Part shown: piece by piece, positions 8,098 through 47,148 of the stretch
How positions within the stretch are numbered: the stretch's first letter is position 1
Layout of the letters: every line of letters begins with the position of its first letter
Source of the DNA: Peribacillus muralis
GTDB lineage: Bacteria > Bacillota > Bacilli > Bacillales > DSM-1321
Reading direction: 5' to 3'
Assembly (NCBI RefSeq): GCF_001645685.2
Contig: NZ_CP017080.1
Location: 4,331,051-4,395,050 of the forward strand
DNA: 64,000 nucleotides
Notes under the pieces: generated by a model
The model's input: the letters and a program-made list of their open reading frames with translations, nothing else
Told to the model about the DNA's origin: nothing
Database searches by the model: none
Program-made: the position numbers and the translations under genes

Positions 8098-8460
8098 TTT
8101 TGGCCGGTTCACGCGTTTTCCGGCCGTTTCTCGACTTATTTCCGGCCAATCGAACCGATTTTCCGGCCGTTCCTCGACTTATTCCGGCCGGTCGAACCGA
8201 TTTTCCGGCCGTTCCTGCTTTTTTCGGCCGGTCGAACCGATTTTCCGGCCGTTCCTCGACTTTTTCCGGCCGGTCGAACCGATTTTCCGGCCGTTCCTCG
8301 ACTTATTCCGGCCGGTCGACTCAATTTTCCGGCCGTTCCTCGACTTTTTCCGGCCGGTCGAACCGATTTTCCGGCCGTTCCTCTCTTTTTCCGGCCGGTC
8401 GAACCGATTTTCCGGCAGTTCCTCGACTTTTTCCGGCCGGTCGAACCGATTTTCCAGCCT
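8098..8460. repeat. GC-rich intergenic tandem array, 42-nt period
   Basis: About eight to nine copies of a 42-nt unit built of two 21-nt half-units: TTCCGGCCGTTCCTCGACTT and TTCCGGCCGGTCGAACCGAT. One unit is 40 nt. Because 21 is a multiple of three, frames stay open on both strands and give false repetitive peptides rich in SGRS. GC content is well above the surroundings. No spacers, so not CRISPR. It lies between the npr terminator and the SET-domain gene. Function unknown; each half-unit contains the palindrome CCGG or CCGGCCGG. Confidence 0.9.
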
Positions 8461-39712: not shown

Positions 39713-40546
39713 TCACTTCAGCCCTTCGTATCGGTAATAATCCTGGCGTTGAATCGTCTTGAATCCGCAAGATTCGTAGAGCTTCAAAGCATGATCATTC
39801 GTCGCCTCGACTTCGAGAAAAATATCATATCCGAGCTGAGATTGTTCGGCTACAAGCTTTTTCAATACCTTTCTGCCAAGCCCCATTCCCTGGTATTCCG
39901 GAAGGATCGAAAATCCATAAATCCAAGCTTCCCCGCCAGAGTGATCCACACGGATTTTACCAACCGCCCGACCATCACTTTCAATCATCATCGTTTTCAG
40001 TGTATCCTCATAGAGAATGCGCTGATAATAATCCCTTGCCTCTTTTTCCGTAAAATGAAAGCAGTGGATATCCAGCAGTATTTCCGTTTCTTCATCATTT
40101 CTCCGGGAAGGACGGATGACGACATCTTCATACCCATCCAGCTCCGTTTGGGACCATTTCATTTGATATTCGGAAAAAGCAAGCTGGCAGGGCAACTCCG
40201 CCAAAAAACCTTTTCCGGAAGGTGATTGAGCTGGTGAATTCAAGATGATCGACTTATATTCCCGCTGTATTGCGCTCTCTAATGCCTCATCCAGCAAATT
40301 TGTGAAAATTCCCTGCCTTCGGAACTCCGGATGCACCATCCCGCACATCTCGATCTTGTTCCCAAAATCATAAAGCCCAAGAAAACCTACAAGATTTGAC
40401 CCATCATAATGAAAAAAATCATTTTGATGAATACCATTACGACTGCGAAGAGTTTCCCAGTTCAGCTTTAATGTAAAATCGCCACTTTCACATTCCCCCT
40501 GGAGAACTCGAATTTCTTCCAGCTGTTTTTCTTTCAAGATCGTCAC
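39713..40546 (-). CDS. GNAT-family N-acetyltransferase, two-domain
   Basis: A 277-residue protein with two GNAT folds. The C-terminal one (about 130-277) is complete, with YGFSILPEYQGMGLGRKVLK containing the acetyl-CoA binding Q/RxxGxG/A motif, then ATNDHALKLYESCGFKTI. The N-terminal one (about 15-125) has a second site, CGMVHPEFRRQGIFTNLLDE. Substrate unknown. It is the first gene of a two-gene unit with the DinB protein. Start 40546, with AAGGGGTGACG upstream. Confidence 0.85.
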   Translation of the reverse strand: MTILKEKQLEEIRVLQGECESGDFTLKLNWETLRSRNGIHQNDFFHYDGSNLVGFLGLYDFGNKIEMCGMVHPEFRRQGIFTNLLDEALESAIQREYKSIILNSPAQSPSGKGFLAELPCQLAFSEYQMKWSQTELDGYEDVVIRPSRRNDEETEILLDIHCFHFTEKEARDYYQRILYEDTLKTMMIESDGRAVGKIRVDHSGGEAWIYGFSILPEYQGMGLGRKVLKKLVAEQSQLGYDIFLEVEATNDHALKLYESCGFKTIQRQDYYRYEGLK

Positions 40547-40936: not shown

Positions 40937-41098
40937 TTATCGTTTCGTTTTATGAGCGGACTTTTTTAAGTTCTCTACGTCCGTTGACAGTTCTTTTAAT
41001 TGTTTACCGAAGCGGAAGAGCAAAAACATAGAAACGACGAATGGATAGCCAAATTCGCTAACTAATGACACCCACACAGTAGCATCCTCAATCATCAT
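40937..41098 (-). CDS. yvrJ: YvrJ-family small membrane peptide
   Basis: A 53-residue frame read from the sequence, beginning MMIEDATVWVSLVSEFGYPF and continuing VVSMFLLFRFGKQLKELSTD. A hydrophobic segment (about 10-28) followed by a charged helix is the pattern of the YvrJ family, whose members resemble holin-like or pore peptides. GGGGTGAAGAGG lies before the ATG. It is divergent from the SigO-like sigma gene; in B. subtilis yvrJ is in the SigO regulon, which supports the call. The rest of 40547-40936 shows no gene. Confidence 0.7.
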   Translation of the reverse strand: MMIEDATVWVSLVSEFGYPFVVSMFLLFRFGKQLKELSTDVENLKKSAHKTKR

Positions 41099-41183
41099 CC
41101 TCTTCACCCCTTTTCTTGTATCTGATATATAAAGTGAAACTTGTTTTAAAAAATCAATCTAGCACTATTGATTCATGGAAAAA

Positions 41184-41205
41184 AGAACGAATGTTCGTAT
41201 ATAAT
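41184..41205 (+). promoter_or_regulatory. LexA (SOS) box overlapping the sigma gene promoter
   Basis: AGAACGAATGTTCG (41184-41197) fits the Bacillus SOS box CGAACRNRYGTTCG at 13 of 14 positions, including GAAC-N4-GTTC. TATAAT follows at 41200-41205, so LexA bound here would block RNA polymerase. It is 50-70 bp upstream of the SigO-like gene. Confidence 0.55.
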
Positions 41206-41254
41206 TGATTTATTCCCCTTGTCTATCACTTTAATAATTAAAGGAGGGATAACA

Positions 41255-41878
41255 ATGAACCCATCAACTTCTCATTTTTTTTCTCATTCATTAGAGTTTT
41301 TGCAGCAACAGTACTCATCTTTCTTTGAACAGCCGATCATTCACGTATTTTTACAAAACCCAGAGCATATGAAGATTTTCACCGAGACTCTTGACACCCC
41401 TTCTTCTCACAACATATGTCATCTCAACGAGACTTTCAAAATTTTCTATTACCGGGCTAAGATATATAAATACATGTGCTCCTTGATTTATTTTTTCTCC
41501 GTTGATTTCGATAAAAGGGCGAGGAAGCAGCGGGAACGCTATCGCATGGTACTTGATGCGACACCGAGCGATGCTGGCGGAATGATCGATCGAATCGGGA
41601 ATTATGACGGTCAGCTTGAAAAAACGGGGGAAACGAATGATCTCTCCTCACATATTAGTGATGAAGAAATGATAAAGGCGCTGCAGAAGCTAACGGCCAA
41701 ACAAAACCTGGTACTGACGATGATCTTTTCTTATGGACTATCCAATAAAGAGATTGCTGCCTATTTCCATGAGTCACCCCAGAATATTTCAAGCATCCGC
41801 AAGCAAGCACTCAAAAAGCTCCGAAAGCACTATACGGATGAGGTATATGATAGAAAGGAGAAAAGCCATTGTGGATAG
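41255..41878 (+). CDS. sigO: SigO-like sigma factor subunit (region 4)
   Basis: A 207-residue protein homologous in layout to B. subtilis SigO (YvrI). Only the C-terminal part is sigma-like: MIKALQKLTAKQNLVLTMIF then GLSNKEIAAYFHESPQNISS and IRKQALKKLRKHY (about 138-195), the region 4 helix-turn-helix that reads the -35 element. The N-terminal 130 residues have no region 2 (FYYRAKIYKYMCSLIYFFSV resembles a linker or region 3). The missing region 2 is supplied by the next gene, which overlaps by 8 nt. ATG 41255 has AAGGAGG upstream. A LexA box lies on its promoter. Confidence 0.8.
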   Translation: MNPSTSHFFSHSLEFLQQQYSSFFEQPIIHVFLQNPEHMKIFTETLDTPSSHNICHLNETFKIFYYRAKIYKYMCSLIYFFSVDFDKRARKQRERYRMVLDATPSDAGGMIDRIGNYDGQLEKTGETNDLSSHISDEEMIKALQKLTAKQNLVLTMIFSYGLSNKEIAAYFHESPQNISSIRKQALKKLRKHYTDEVYDRKEKSHCG

Positions 41879-42089
41879 TAAACTTTCTAAAGAAGAGCTG
41901 ATGAGCTTAATCAATTCCCTGAATCCTAAAATAAAAAAATCATTAAAAAACACAAACTATCAAGACCGGAACGATCTCGAGCAAGAGATCAAGCTGAAAA
42001 TCATTGAATCCTATGAAAAAATCGCGGCAATAGAGGCACCCAACTTCGAGGAGTTCCTTTCCGAATTCCTGAATAAGCAAAAACAATGA
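41871..42089 (+). CDS. rsoA: RsoA-like sigma partner (region 2)
   Basis: A 72-residue protein starting at GTG 41871, overlapping the sigma gene stop by 8 nt (GTGGATAG), with AAAGGAG ten nt upstream. LSKEELMSLINSLNPKIKKS and NTNYQDRNDLEQEIKLKIIE match sigma factor region 2 (DLEQEI segment), the part that contacts core polymerase and the -10 element. In B. subtilis RsoA (YvrHa) works only with SigO, and together they act as one sigma factor. An upstream ATG frame (41733) overlaps the sigma gene and is not used. Confidence 0.85.
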   Translation: MDSKLSKEELMSLINSLNPKIKKSLKNTNYQDRNDLEQEIKLKIIESYEKIAAIEAPNFEEFLSEFLNKQKQ

Positions 42090-44639: not shown

Positions 44640-45169
44640 GTGATCGGAGCGGTTACTCACGAATTGGGGCGGGGTTCTCCTGATTTTGGAGCTTTTACTT
44701 GCGAATTTGAGCAGTTTACTCGCCAATTTGAATTTTCTCTTGATTATGAGGGTTTCACTCGTAAATTTGGGCGTGCTTCTCATTAATTTGATGCTTTACT
44801 CTCAATTTTGGGCGGGACTCTCCTGATTTTGAAGCTTTACTCGCGAATTGGAACGTTTACTCGCCAATTTGAGCGGTTTACTCGCCAATTTTAGGCTTTT
44901 ACTCGCCAAATTGAGCAGTTTACTCGCCAATTTTAGGCTTTTACTCGCCAAATTGAATTTTCTCTTGATTATGAGGGTTTCACTCGTAAATTTGGGCGTG
45001 CTTCTCATTAATTTGATGCTTTACTCTCAATTTTGGGCGGGACTCTCCTGATTTTGAAGCTTTACTCGCGAATTGGAACGTTTACTCGCCAATTTGAGCG
45101 GTTTACTCGCCAATTTTAGGCTTTTACTCGCCAAATTGAGCAGTTTACTCGCCAATTTTAGGCTTTTAC
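44640..45169. repeat. AT-rich tandem array, left part
   Basis: Half-units of 21-22 nt begin TTTACTCGCC(A/G)A: TTTACTCGCCAATTTTAGGC alternates with TTTACTCGCCAATTTGAGCG. A higher-order unit of about 225 nt holding GAATTTTCTCTTGATTATGA and ATGCTTTACTCTCAATTTTG occurs at 44730 and 44955. The array continues at 46674 on the other side of an insertion element. It starts about 130 bp upstream of the acylase gene. Open frames in it are not genes. Confidence 0.9.
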
Positions 45170-45416: not shown

Positions 45417-46574
45417 CTATCCTTTTTTCTTAGCGTAAACCGTGTCTTGATACTGCATTAATACGGCACCTATTAATCGGAAGGCTGATTGGGTATTAGG
45501 AAAGATTCGGATGACTCTTTCTCTTCTACGAACTTCTTGGTTTAAACGTTCCAGCGAGTTGGTACTGCGGATGTGCTGCCTGATTTTTTCTGGATGATTC
45601 ATGTATTGAACGGTGTCTTCGAACCCTTCATCTAAAATTTGAAGGGCTTTTTCATATTTTAATTCCTCCCCGAATTTATCGATTAACTCCGCTTTGAATA
45701 GACGACAATCCTCAATCGTGACAGCCTCAAATACCCGTTTAATCATTAAACGAATGTCGGATGATCCCTTTTTGGGCAGTTTCTCTAAAATGTTCCGCTT
45801 AAAATGGACATTGCATCTTTGCCAGGAGGTTCCAATGAAATCGCGTTGGATCGCTTTTTGTAATCCTTGATGGGCATCAGAAATCACCAGCTTAGGGGAT
45901 TGAAGGCCACGAGATTTTAGTTGTTTAAAGAACTGGGACCAGCATTCAAAACTTTCAACATGATCGATATGTACCCCTATAATCTCCCGCTTATTTTGTT
46001 TGGTAAGAGCTGTGGCGATATATACGGCTTTTGAAACAACCTGTTGGTGCTCACGCACCTTGATATACATGGCATCCATGAAAATAAAGGGATAGTACGT
46101 GATATTTAGGGGCCTAGTTGCCCAGCCATTAACAATGGGATCCAGCTTTTGGGTAAGCGAGGAAACAAAAGACTTTGAAACACTTTCTCCGCAAAGCTGT
46201 TCGACAACATGGGTGACTTTCCGAGTAGAGACCCCATTGATCACCATCTCCAACATGGAAAGGATAAGCGCCTGATCACACCGGGCATATTTTTCAAAAA
46301 CAGAAGGGGAAAAGTCACCAGTACGCGTCCTGGGTACCTTCAATTTAATCTTCCCAATACTCATCGTAAAGTCACGTTCATAATAGCAATTCCGATAATC
46401 CTGACGTTCGGAGGAACGCTCATAAGATGAAACTTGTAGATAGGCGTCTCTCTCCTTCTCCATAAACTCATTTAAGATTAATACAACCGCTGATTTAATC
46501 ACGTCATCCATTGTAGAATTCATAATGGATACTTTTAAAAGATCGAGATCAAGGTTAAACTGTAACTGAGTCAT
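45417..46574 (-). CDS. IS256-family (mutator-type) transposase
   Basis: A 385-residue DDE transposase. RDYRNCYYERDFTMSIGKIK then LKVPRTRTGDFSPSVFEKYA is the N-terminal DNA-binding part. Catalytic residues: Asp in FIFMDAMYIKVRE (about 168), Asp in KLVISDAHQGLQKA (about 234) and Glu in STNSLERLNQEVRRR (about 342), with CNVHFKRN (the C/H motif) in between. Length and motifs are complete, so it is probably active. Start ATG 46574. It lies 247 bp from the left end and 99 bp from the right end of the element. Confidence 0.95.
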   Translation of the reverse strand: MTQLQFNLDLDLLKVSIMNSTMDDVIKSAVVLILNEFMEKERDAYLQVSSYERSSERQDYRNCYYERDFTMSIGKIKLKVPRTRTGDFSPSVFEKYARCDQALILSMLEMVINGVSTRKVTHVVEQLCGESVSKSFVSSLTQKLDPIVNGWATRPLNITYYPFIFMDAMYIKVREHQQVVSKAVYIATALTKQNKREIIGVHIDHVESFECWSQFFKQLKSRGLQSPKLVISDAHQGLQKAIQRDFIGTSWQRCNVHFKRNILEKLPKKGSSDIRLMIKRVFEAVTIEDCRLFKAELIDKFGEELKYEKALQILDEGFEDTVQYMNHPEKIRQHIRSTNSLERLNQEVRRRERVIRIFPNTQSAFRLIGAVLMQYQDTVYAKKKG

Positions 46575-46673: not shown

Positions 46674-47122
46674 GCTTTTACTCGCCAAATTGAATTTTCT
46701 CTTGATTATGAGTGTTTCACTCGTAAATTGGGGCGTGTTTCTCCTGATTTTGATGCTTTACTCTCAATTTTGGGCGGGACTCTCCTAATTTTGGAGCTTT
46801 ACTCGCCAATTTGAACGTTTACTCGCCAATTTCAGGCTTTTACTCACCAATTTAAGCAGTTTACTCGCCAATTTTAGGCTTTTACTCGCCAAATTGAGCA
46901 GTTTACTCGCCAATTTTAGACTTTTACTCGCCAATTGGAATTTCCTCTTGTTTATGAGGGTTTCACTCGTAAATTGGGGCGTGTTTTCTCCTGATTTTGA
47001 TGCTTTACTCTCAATTTTGGGGCGGGACTCTCCTGATTTTGATGCTTTACTCGCGAATTGGAACGTTTACTCGCCAATTTAAGCAGTTTACTCGCCAATT
47101 TTGGGCTTTTACTCGCCAATCC
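46674..47122. repeat. AT-rich tandem array, right part
   Basis: Continuation of the array left of the IS, with the same TTTACTCGCC half-units and two more copies of the higher-order unit (46692 and 46938). Removing the element plus one GCTTTTAC copy joins the halves into AGGCTTTTACTCGCCAAATT, exactly the sequence found elsewhere in the array. Confidence 0.9.
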
Positions 47123-47148
47123 TGCTCTTTTACTCTTGCGTAGAATGA

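Follow-up and report, generated by a model that had tools for sequence, protein, structure and literature searches.

A putative LexA-controlled two-subunit sigma factor in Peribacillus with a holin-like peptide as its predicted output

In Bacillus subtilis, SigO, which supplies sigma region 4, and RsoA, which supplies region 2, have been shown to join on core RNA polymerase; the pair is also named YvrI-YvrHa. The system is acid-responsive, with RsiO (YvrL) as its membrane regulator and OxdC as its target. Passages of published work describe SigO-RsoA as transcribing its own operon and yvrJ (PMC8103513) and as acting in an acid response (PMC10141391). Judged by titles and abstracts, the open-licence PMC papers searched describe a two-subunit sigma factor from B. 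subtilis alone, with an odd, narrow regulon, and none of them reports that LexA controls SigO-RsoA. Sigma factors tied to DNA damage have been described elsewhere: excerpts on the clostridial UviA/UviB system report a sigma factor, a BhlA-family holin, an amidase and an SOS-induced bacteriocin, together with a putative LexA site (PMC4459074, PMC9527704), and an excerpt on Xpf of prophage PBSX links this sigma-like factor to DNA-damage-induced killing (PMC10141391).

The locus described here lies in a Peribacillus genome, for which the nearest named record is P. simplex VanAntwerpen02, with a SigO that is 95% identical. Its features are collected in Table 1, with positions counted in the window, the whole 64,000-nt stretch of DNA that was analysed. 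A sequence-only reading of this DNA had described a region-4-only sigma gene overlapping a region-2-only gene by 8 nt, with a divergent yvrJ, and this arrangement is borne out by the coordinates and by matches to Sigma70_r4 and PF12841. Residues 142-191 of SigO match Sigma70_r4 of Pfam (E 5.3e-10), a region-2 family is absent from the five families listed for the protein, and a PDB profile search with 24 SigO relatives matched FliA, WhiG and SigF chains across region 4. The best NCBIfam models for RsoA are NF010682 (73 bits, cut-off 86) and the RsoA model NF041489 (57 bits, cut-off 100); because both scores fall below their cut-offs, we regard the protein as a diverged relative. Its AlphaFold2 model is helical throughout (pLDDT 88), and a fold search returned nine matches, none of them significant, two of which are sigma-factor chains with E above 8. 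A SigO with region 4 and no region 2, adjoining the gene of a diverged RsoA relative, points to a putative two-subunit sigma factor of the SigO-RsoA type. The window YvrJ scores 31.5 bits against PF12841 (cut-off 29.5), and its gene could equally well begin at the in-frame ATG at 41098.

Table 1. Features of the sigO-rsoA-yvrJ locus, by position in the window.
Feature	Position	Strand	Description	Basis
GNAT acetyltransferase gene	39713..40546	-	follows yvrJ, same strand; possible co-target	role predicted
yvrJ	40937..41107	-	small membrane peptide, holin-like family; predicted target	PF12841
Putative SigO-RsoA promoter of yvrJ	41130..41157	-	TTGATTT-N13-TCACTTTA	role predicted
LexA-type box	41184..41197	.	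AGAACGAATGTTCG, core GAACN4GTTC, directly 5' of TATAAT	palindrome, conservation, published consensus
TATAAT	41200..41205	+	putative sigma-A -10 element, SOS promoter of sigO-rsoA	sequence reading; role predicted
Putative SigO-RsoA autoregulatory promoter	41205..41233	+	TTGATTT-N14-TCACTTTA	role predicted
sigO	41255..41878	+	region-4-only sigma subunit; ATG start, 207 aa	Sigma70_r4 match
rsoA	41871..42089	+	region-2-like sigma subunit; GTG start, 72 aa	NF010682/NF041489, below cut-offs

The earlier claim of a LexA-like box near the sigO promoter also held, and the core of this box proved to be conserved among relatives. The palindrome is of the GAACN4GTTC type, as in the LexA/SOS regulon, and has one mismatch to CGAACN4GTTCG and two mismatches to CGAACRNRYGTTYC; a published passage gives GAACN4GTTC as the Firmicutes LexA core and CGAACRNRYGTTYC as the Gram-positive consensus (PMC2248561). 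Allowing up to two mismatches, CGAACN4GTTCG has 25 matches in the window versus 22.9 expected, a number reached in 31 of 100 shuffles, and CGAACRNRYGTTYC has 24 versus 14.9 expected (4 of 100 shuffles as high), seven of the 24 belonging to a single repeat array at 8151-8455. Since the window-only count for the palindrome does not exceed chance, we dropped such counts as evidence and took the significance of the box from its conservation among relatives. The array at 8151-8455 consists of seven copies of CGAACCGATTTTCC, spaced 40-84 nt apart and in most cases by about 42 nt. The window also contains tandem arrays of units of about 21 nt (TTTACTCGCCAATTTGAGC), set within 225-248-nt repeats at 44694-45169 and 46675-47135, which flank on both sides a transposase-like ORF, recognised by eye, at 45417-46574.

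Within the genus, GAAC and GTTC are exact in all 23 aligned Peribacillus upstream regions, including those of orthologs with 48-57% protein identity, while the spacer and flanks vary; the alignment omitted three near-copies (L008, L009 and L010) and three paralogs that are too distant (L033-L035), among which the box occurs in L034 only. Of 36 Peribacillus genomes, 24 have a SigO relative and the other 12 have none at E 0.001, indicating that the module has been gained or lost inside the genus. One Peribacillus sigO (L028/L032) is interrupted by stop codons, with its LexA box and promoter elements intact. Across the order, RsoA-like proteins are found in at least 136 of 397 genomes (E 0.001), and nine score above the model cut-off among the matches listed. 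From the matches listed we examined 29 newly fetched loci and 60 picked in list order after thinning out repeats from the same genus, in addition to the Peribacillus set. The exact core GAACN4GTTC stands ahead of 74 of 100 region-4/region-2 sigma pairs, counting any box from 350 nt upstream of the longest frame to 60 nt into it; the 100 include same-genus repeats and count the broken Peribacillus gene L028 as two rows (73 of 99 without the double). Filters on ORFs and pairing excluded six loci from this count (L001, L007, L008, L012, L026 and L030), all of which carry an upstream box, and a further three without an intact or same-strand pair stand outside it (L072, L077 and L114), of which L077 carries a box. 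As a control, 500 windows upstream of other ORFs in the same loci were examined; 15 contain the core, and 12 of these 15 are the sigma gene's own, shared box; the comparison of 74/100 with 3/500 gives a Fisher p of 4e-68, which indicates scale only, since the rows are not independent. At least one boxed pair is present in 30 of 40 genus codes.

The exact core is missing from 26 of the 100 pairs, namely nine B. subtilis-type loci (L036-L044) and 17 others. Three of the 17 have a GTTT-type LexA-like box (L061, L064 and L080), and three have another one-mismatch box near the gene (L067, L071 and L113); we give one-mismatch boxes little weight because they are common by chance, occurring in 88 of 500 control windows. 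In a single genus code, three loci (L130, L131 and L135) have extra LexA-like half sites past the first box and no YvrJ, and in a fourth (L083) the pair lies directly before an ORF that resembles, by eye, a single-strand-binding protein.

A palindrome of this kind might instead be bound by a different dimeric repressor whose half-site resembles that of LexA, such as a plasmid or phage repressor. The site is identified from its sequence only, and TetR-like and XRE-like genes, recognised by eye, occur in 6 and 4 of 85 neighbourhoods, respectively. Nonetheless, this genome has related boxes at lexA (TIGR00498 above cut-off), which carries two of the GAACN4GTTT form, and at a parE-like gene recognised by eye, which carries the exact core. 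Moreover, the four inner bases, which were free in the search, follow the RNRY pattern of LexA in 35 of 43 genus-unique boxes, compared with 14 of the 41 core sites found genome-wide here and with 18.75% expected, and among the clusters shown no regulator gene is as widespread as the box with its 30 genus codes. We consider another repressor very unlikely. Genome-wide, the core has fewer sites than its reversed pattern (41 versus 116). A second LexA-like match, to the C-terminal part and below cut-off at 71.9 bits, lies about 5 kb from lexA (G000:C1:2021630-2022007). Putative LexA control of sigO-rsoA is the reading that we regard as highly probable, and the SOS control suggested earlier is best supported by the conservation pattern, in which the core is present in 23/23 Peribacillus regions and 74/100 pairs and in none of the nine B. 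subtilis-type loci.

The sequence-only reading had also remarked that rsiO and oxdC are missing from the window. They are, and a search of the whole 5.0-Mb genome found no match to RsiO (PF14184; the B. subtilis protein was detected as a control) and no OxdC (TIGR03404) above cut-off; the two OxdC matches below cut-off lie in open frames of 242-243 aa. For this locus the absence need not be unusual, since comparison with relatives points to B. subtilis as the special case. By eye, we recognised an OxdC-like cupin beside the two B. subtilis-type loci whose ORF lists were read. In a tree of 90 sigma proteins, rooted at the midpoint for drawing only, the nine B. subtilis-type rows cluster together (100/100) within a set of 42 rows (99/97), 29 of which bear the box, and the box label changes 13 times on the tree versus 20.5 times for shuffled labels. 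The nesting of the B. subtilis-type clade among mostly box-bearing relatives suggests that the box was lost, and the B. subtilis model system looks like an exception in its family. An acid-stress SigO-RsoA as in B. subtilis, beside a palindrome that arose by coincidence, would fit the homology of the two pairs and a box that does not exceed chance in the window by itself. We find this reading scarcely credible, given the GAAC/GTTC retained in every aligned Peribacillus region, the strong enrichment of the box across genus codes, and a genome with no RsiO match and no OxdC above cut-off; on the last ground, an acid-type SigO was rejected for this genome.

Peribacillus upstream regions share an order of LexA box, TATAAT (kept in 23/23 aligned regions) and TTGATTT-N14-TCACTTTA, with the N13 version before yvrJ, and in the window the sigO and yvrJ promoter elements are identical at 15/15 letters. 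Among 18 divergent loci, 11 have at least 13 of the 15 promoter letters in common between the sigO side and the yvrJ side; this level is also reached in 78 of 306 pairings across loci and in 25 of 180 shuffles, so that the test is a modest one. A strict promoter pattern has eight matches in this genome, at sigO, at yvrJ, inside five genes, and at a site (L183) that straddles the start of an oppositely read gene and has no gene called ahead of it; a relaxed pattern has three, at sigO, at yvrJ and inside an MFS-like gene. Thus, with two patterns applied to the whole genome, no gene besides sigO and yvrJ was found downstream of a correctly oriented match. That YvrJ might be the target had been suggested before, and it is now the best-supported reading, since only sigO and yvrJ follow a same-direction SigO-type promoter here; we predict with good confidence that yvrJ is a target of SigO-RsoA. 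The GNAT acetyltransferase gene is a possible co-target; it is spaced 390 nt from yvrJ in the window, and 46 and 53 nt in two other loci (L141 and L142).

What YvrJ does is suggested by its family. All of 42 YvrJ peptides, 41 of which came from sigma modules, match PF12841 at E up to 0.1, and 36 of them match the PHROG holin family phrog_4898 (E up to 0.1, best 7.9e-9); the window YvrJ matches the latter at E 0.19, weaker than the 0.1 threshold. None of the 42 matches the BhlA family in Pfam. Of 82 sigma pairs (counted with unfiltered ORFs in 82 of 85 loci), 66 have a YvrJ no more than 2.5 kb away. In a table of all 85 loci, made with a filter that dropped an overlapping gene, YvrJ lies between sigO and rsoA in 28, is divergent in 14, downstream in 4 and elsewhere in 8, and is absent (E<1e-6) in 13, with 18 loci unclassed. 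Another YvrJ, which scores higher in Pfam (L002 1468-1644; G000:C1:3824229), follows two small same-strand ORFs and adjoins no sigma pair.

Peptidoglycan hydrolases and peptidoglycan-binding proteins were surveyed with phmmer, using six Pfam-checked hydrolases and two peptidoglycan-binding proteins as seeds. Such a protein lies within 1.5 kb of 17 of 82 pairs, and within 500 nt of 13; by these seeds, 65 of the 82 loci have none within 1.5 kb, and widening the flanks to about 5 kb added only two more pairs. The catalytic domains, checked by Pfam in six loci, are Amidase_3 (L065, L066 and L127), Amidase_2 (L081 and L088) and GH24 (L085). By a simple hydropathy scan, a signal-peptide-like stretch is missing in 20 of the 21 such proteins with the N-terminus present, the exception (in L094) looking secreted. 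In L106 and L112, one strand behind the box carries sigO, rsoA, a peptidoglycan-binding protein, an Amidase_3-like gene and yvrJ, in that order, and in L088, L105 and L126 YvrJ adjoins hydrolase genes outside the sigma operon. For the strain studied here, no hydrolase was found beside the module or by the genome-wide promoter pattern.

YvrJ could instead be a regulatory membrane partner under the same SOS control, a tether or anti-sigma replacing RsiO, with the true targets elsewhere. Its position between sigO and rsoA in 28 of 85 loci, where it would be made together with the sigma halves, the lack of an RsiO match in this genome, and a weak match of one of the 42 peptides to a PHROG anti-sigma family (E 0.079) are consistent with such a role. 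We nevertheless think it unlikely: the holin family is matched by 36 of the 42 peptides, hydrolase genes adjoin yvrJ away from the sigma operon in three loci and precede it in two, and the two patterns give no other gene-preceding promoter match in the genome. That YvrJ is a putative holin-like effector is the assignment we lean towards, if not strongly.

The module is also found on plasmids. SigO relatives occur in 30 plasmid records, and the exact box precedes the sigma gene in 10 of 11 plasmid loci examined, the exception (L202) having an insertion sequence there. The gene order on the B. subtilis plasmid pBS72 is sigma, small gene, glutaredoxin, amidase, YvrJ. Genes for an S8 protease and a glutaredoxin recur beside the module on both chromosomes and plasmids (L076, L078, L102, L191, L192, L194, L200 and L203). 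Phage records yielded no match for the window SigO or for the one YvrJ searched, and another SigO gave one weak partial match; we rejected a phage origin of the module on this account, though PHROG families resemble both sigma genes.

It is established SOS biology that DNA damage leads to the removal of LexA. The box, the promoter-like elements and the gene order are read directly from the DNA; from these we infer LexA repression, a sigma-A start, amplification by SigO-RsoA and action of YvrJ at the membrane. In undamaged cells, LexA would occupy GAACGAATGTTC, adjoining the TATAAT and the SigO-type promoter that precede sigO-rsoA. Once DNA damage had cleared LexA, the sigma-A promoter would start sigO-rsoA. 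SigO and RsoA would unite on core RNA polymerase through region 4 and region 2, respectively, and the holoenzyme would read TTGATTT-N13/14-TCACTTTA before sigO, amplifying its own synthesis, and before the divergent yvrJ. YvrJ, a putative phage-holin relative of about 50-60 aa, may then permeabilise the membrane; in those relatives with a peptidoglycan hydrolase beside YvrJ, the cells probably lyse or use the holin to assist release. Requiring both sigma halves would turn the module into a threshold (AND) switch. We propose that the locus encodes a two-subunit sigma factor that LexA represses and whose output is a holin-like peptide, a split counterpart of clostridial UviA/UviB, and we give this reading a probability of roughly 60%.

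A broader proposal is that LexA-controlled split sigma factors with YvrJ form a widespread DNA-damage switch for lysis or release on Bacillales chromosomes and plasmids, made safe by the AND gate, and that the acid system of B. subtilis is a derived copy, in which the LexA box was lost and RsiO and OxdC were gained; we would put this at even odds. If true, B. subtilis is the exception, and what the family usually does is respond to DNA damage by expressing a holin-like peptide and, in some cases, a wall hydrolase. YvrJ would gain a function, and the split sigma factor a reason, a dangerous output being kept behind two keys. The sigma-holin logic of the clostridial UviA/UviB system would likewise extend to the Bacillales and their plasmids.

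Set beside the known systems, the Peribacillus locus resembles B. subtilis SigO-RsoA in its putative sigma factor split into region 4 and region 2 and in its divergent yvrJ; unlike the B. subtilis locus, it has a LexA-type box, and its genome has no RsiO and no OxdC above cut-off. Xpf is similar in that, in the excerpt cited, a sigma-like factor is tied to killing induced by DNA damage (PMC10141391), but Xpf is a prophage gene, whereas split-sigma modules are found on chromosomes and plasmids and hardly in phage records. The Clostridium perfringens UviA/UviB (Bcn5) regulon, as excerpts describe it, similarly has a putative LexA site, a dedicated sigma factor, a small holin and an amidase endolysin nearby, and is likewise found on plasmids and chromosomes (PMC4459074, PMC9527704). 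It differs in that UviA is one polypeptide and UviB belongs to the BhlA family, whereas here the sigma factor is split and the peptide a YvrJ, and in its bacteriocin cargo, none having been identified here. The resemblance is one of function only; by this analogy, UviA/UviB is the closest working parallel to the split sigma factor and its putative YvrJ output.
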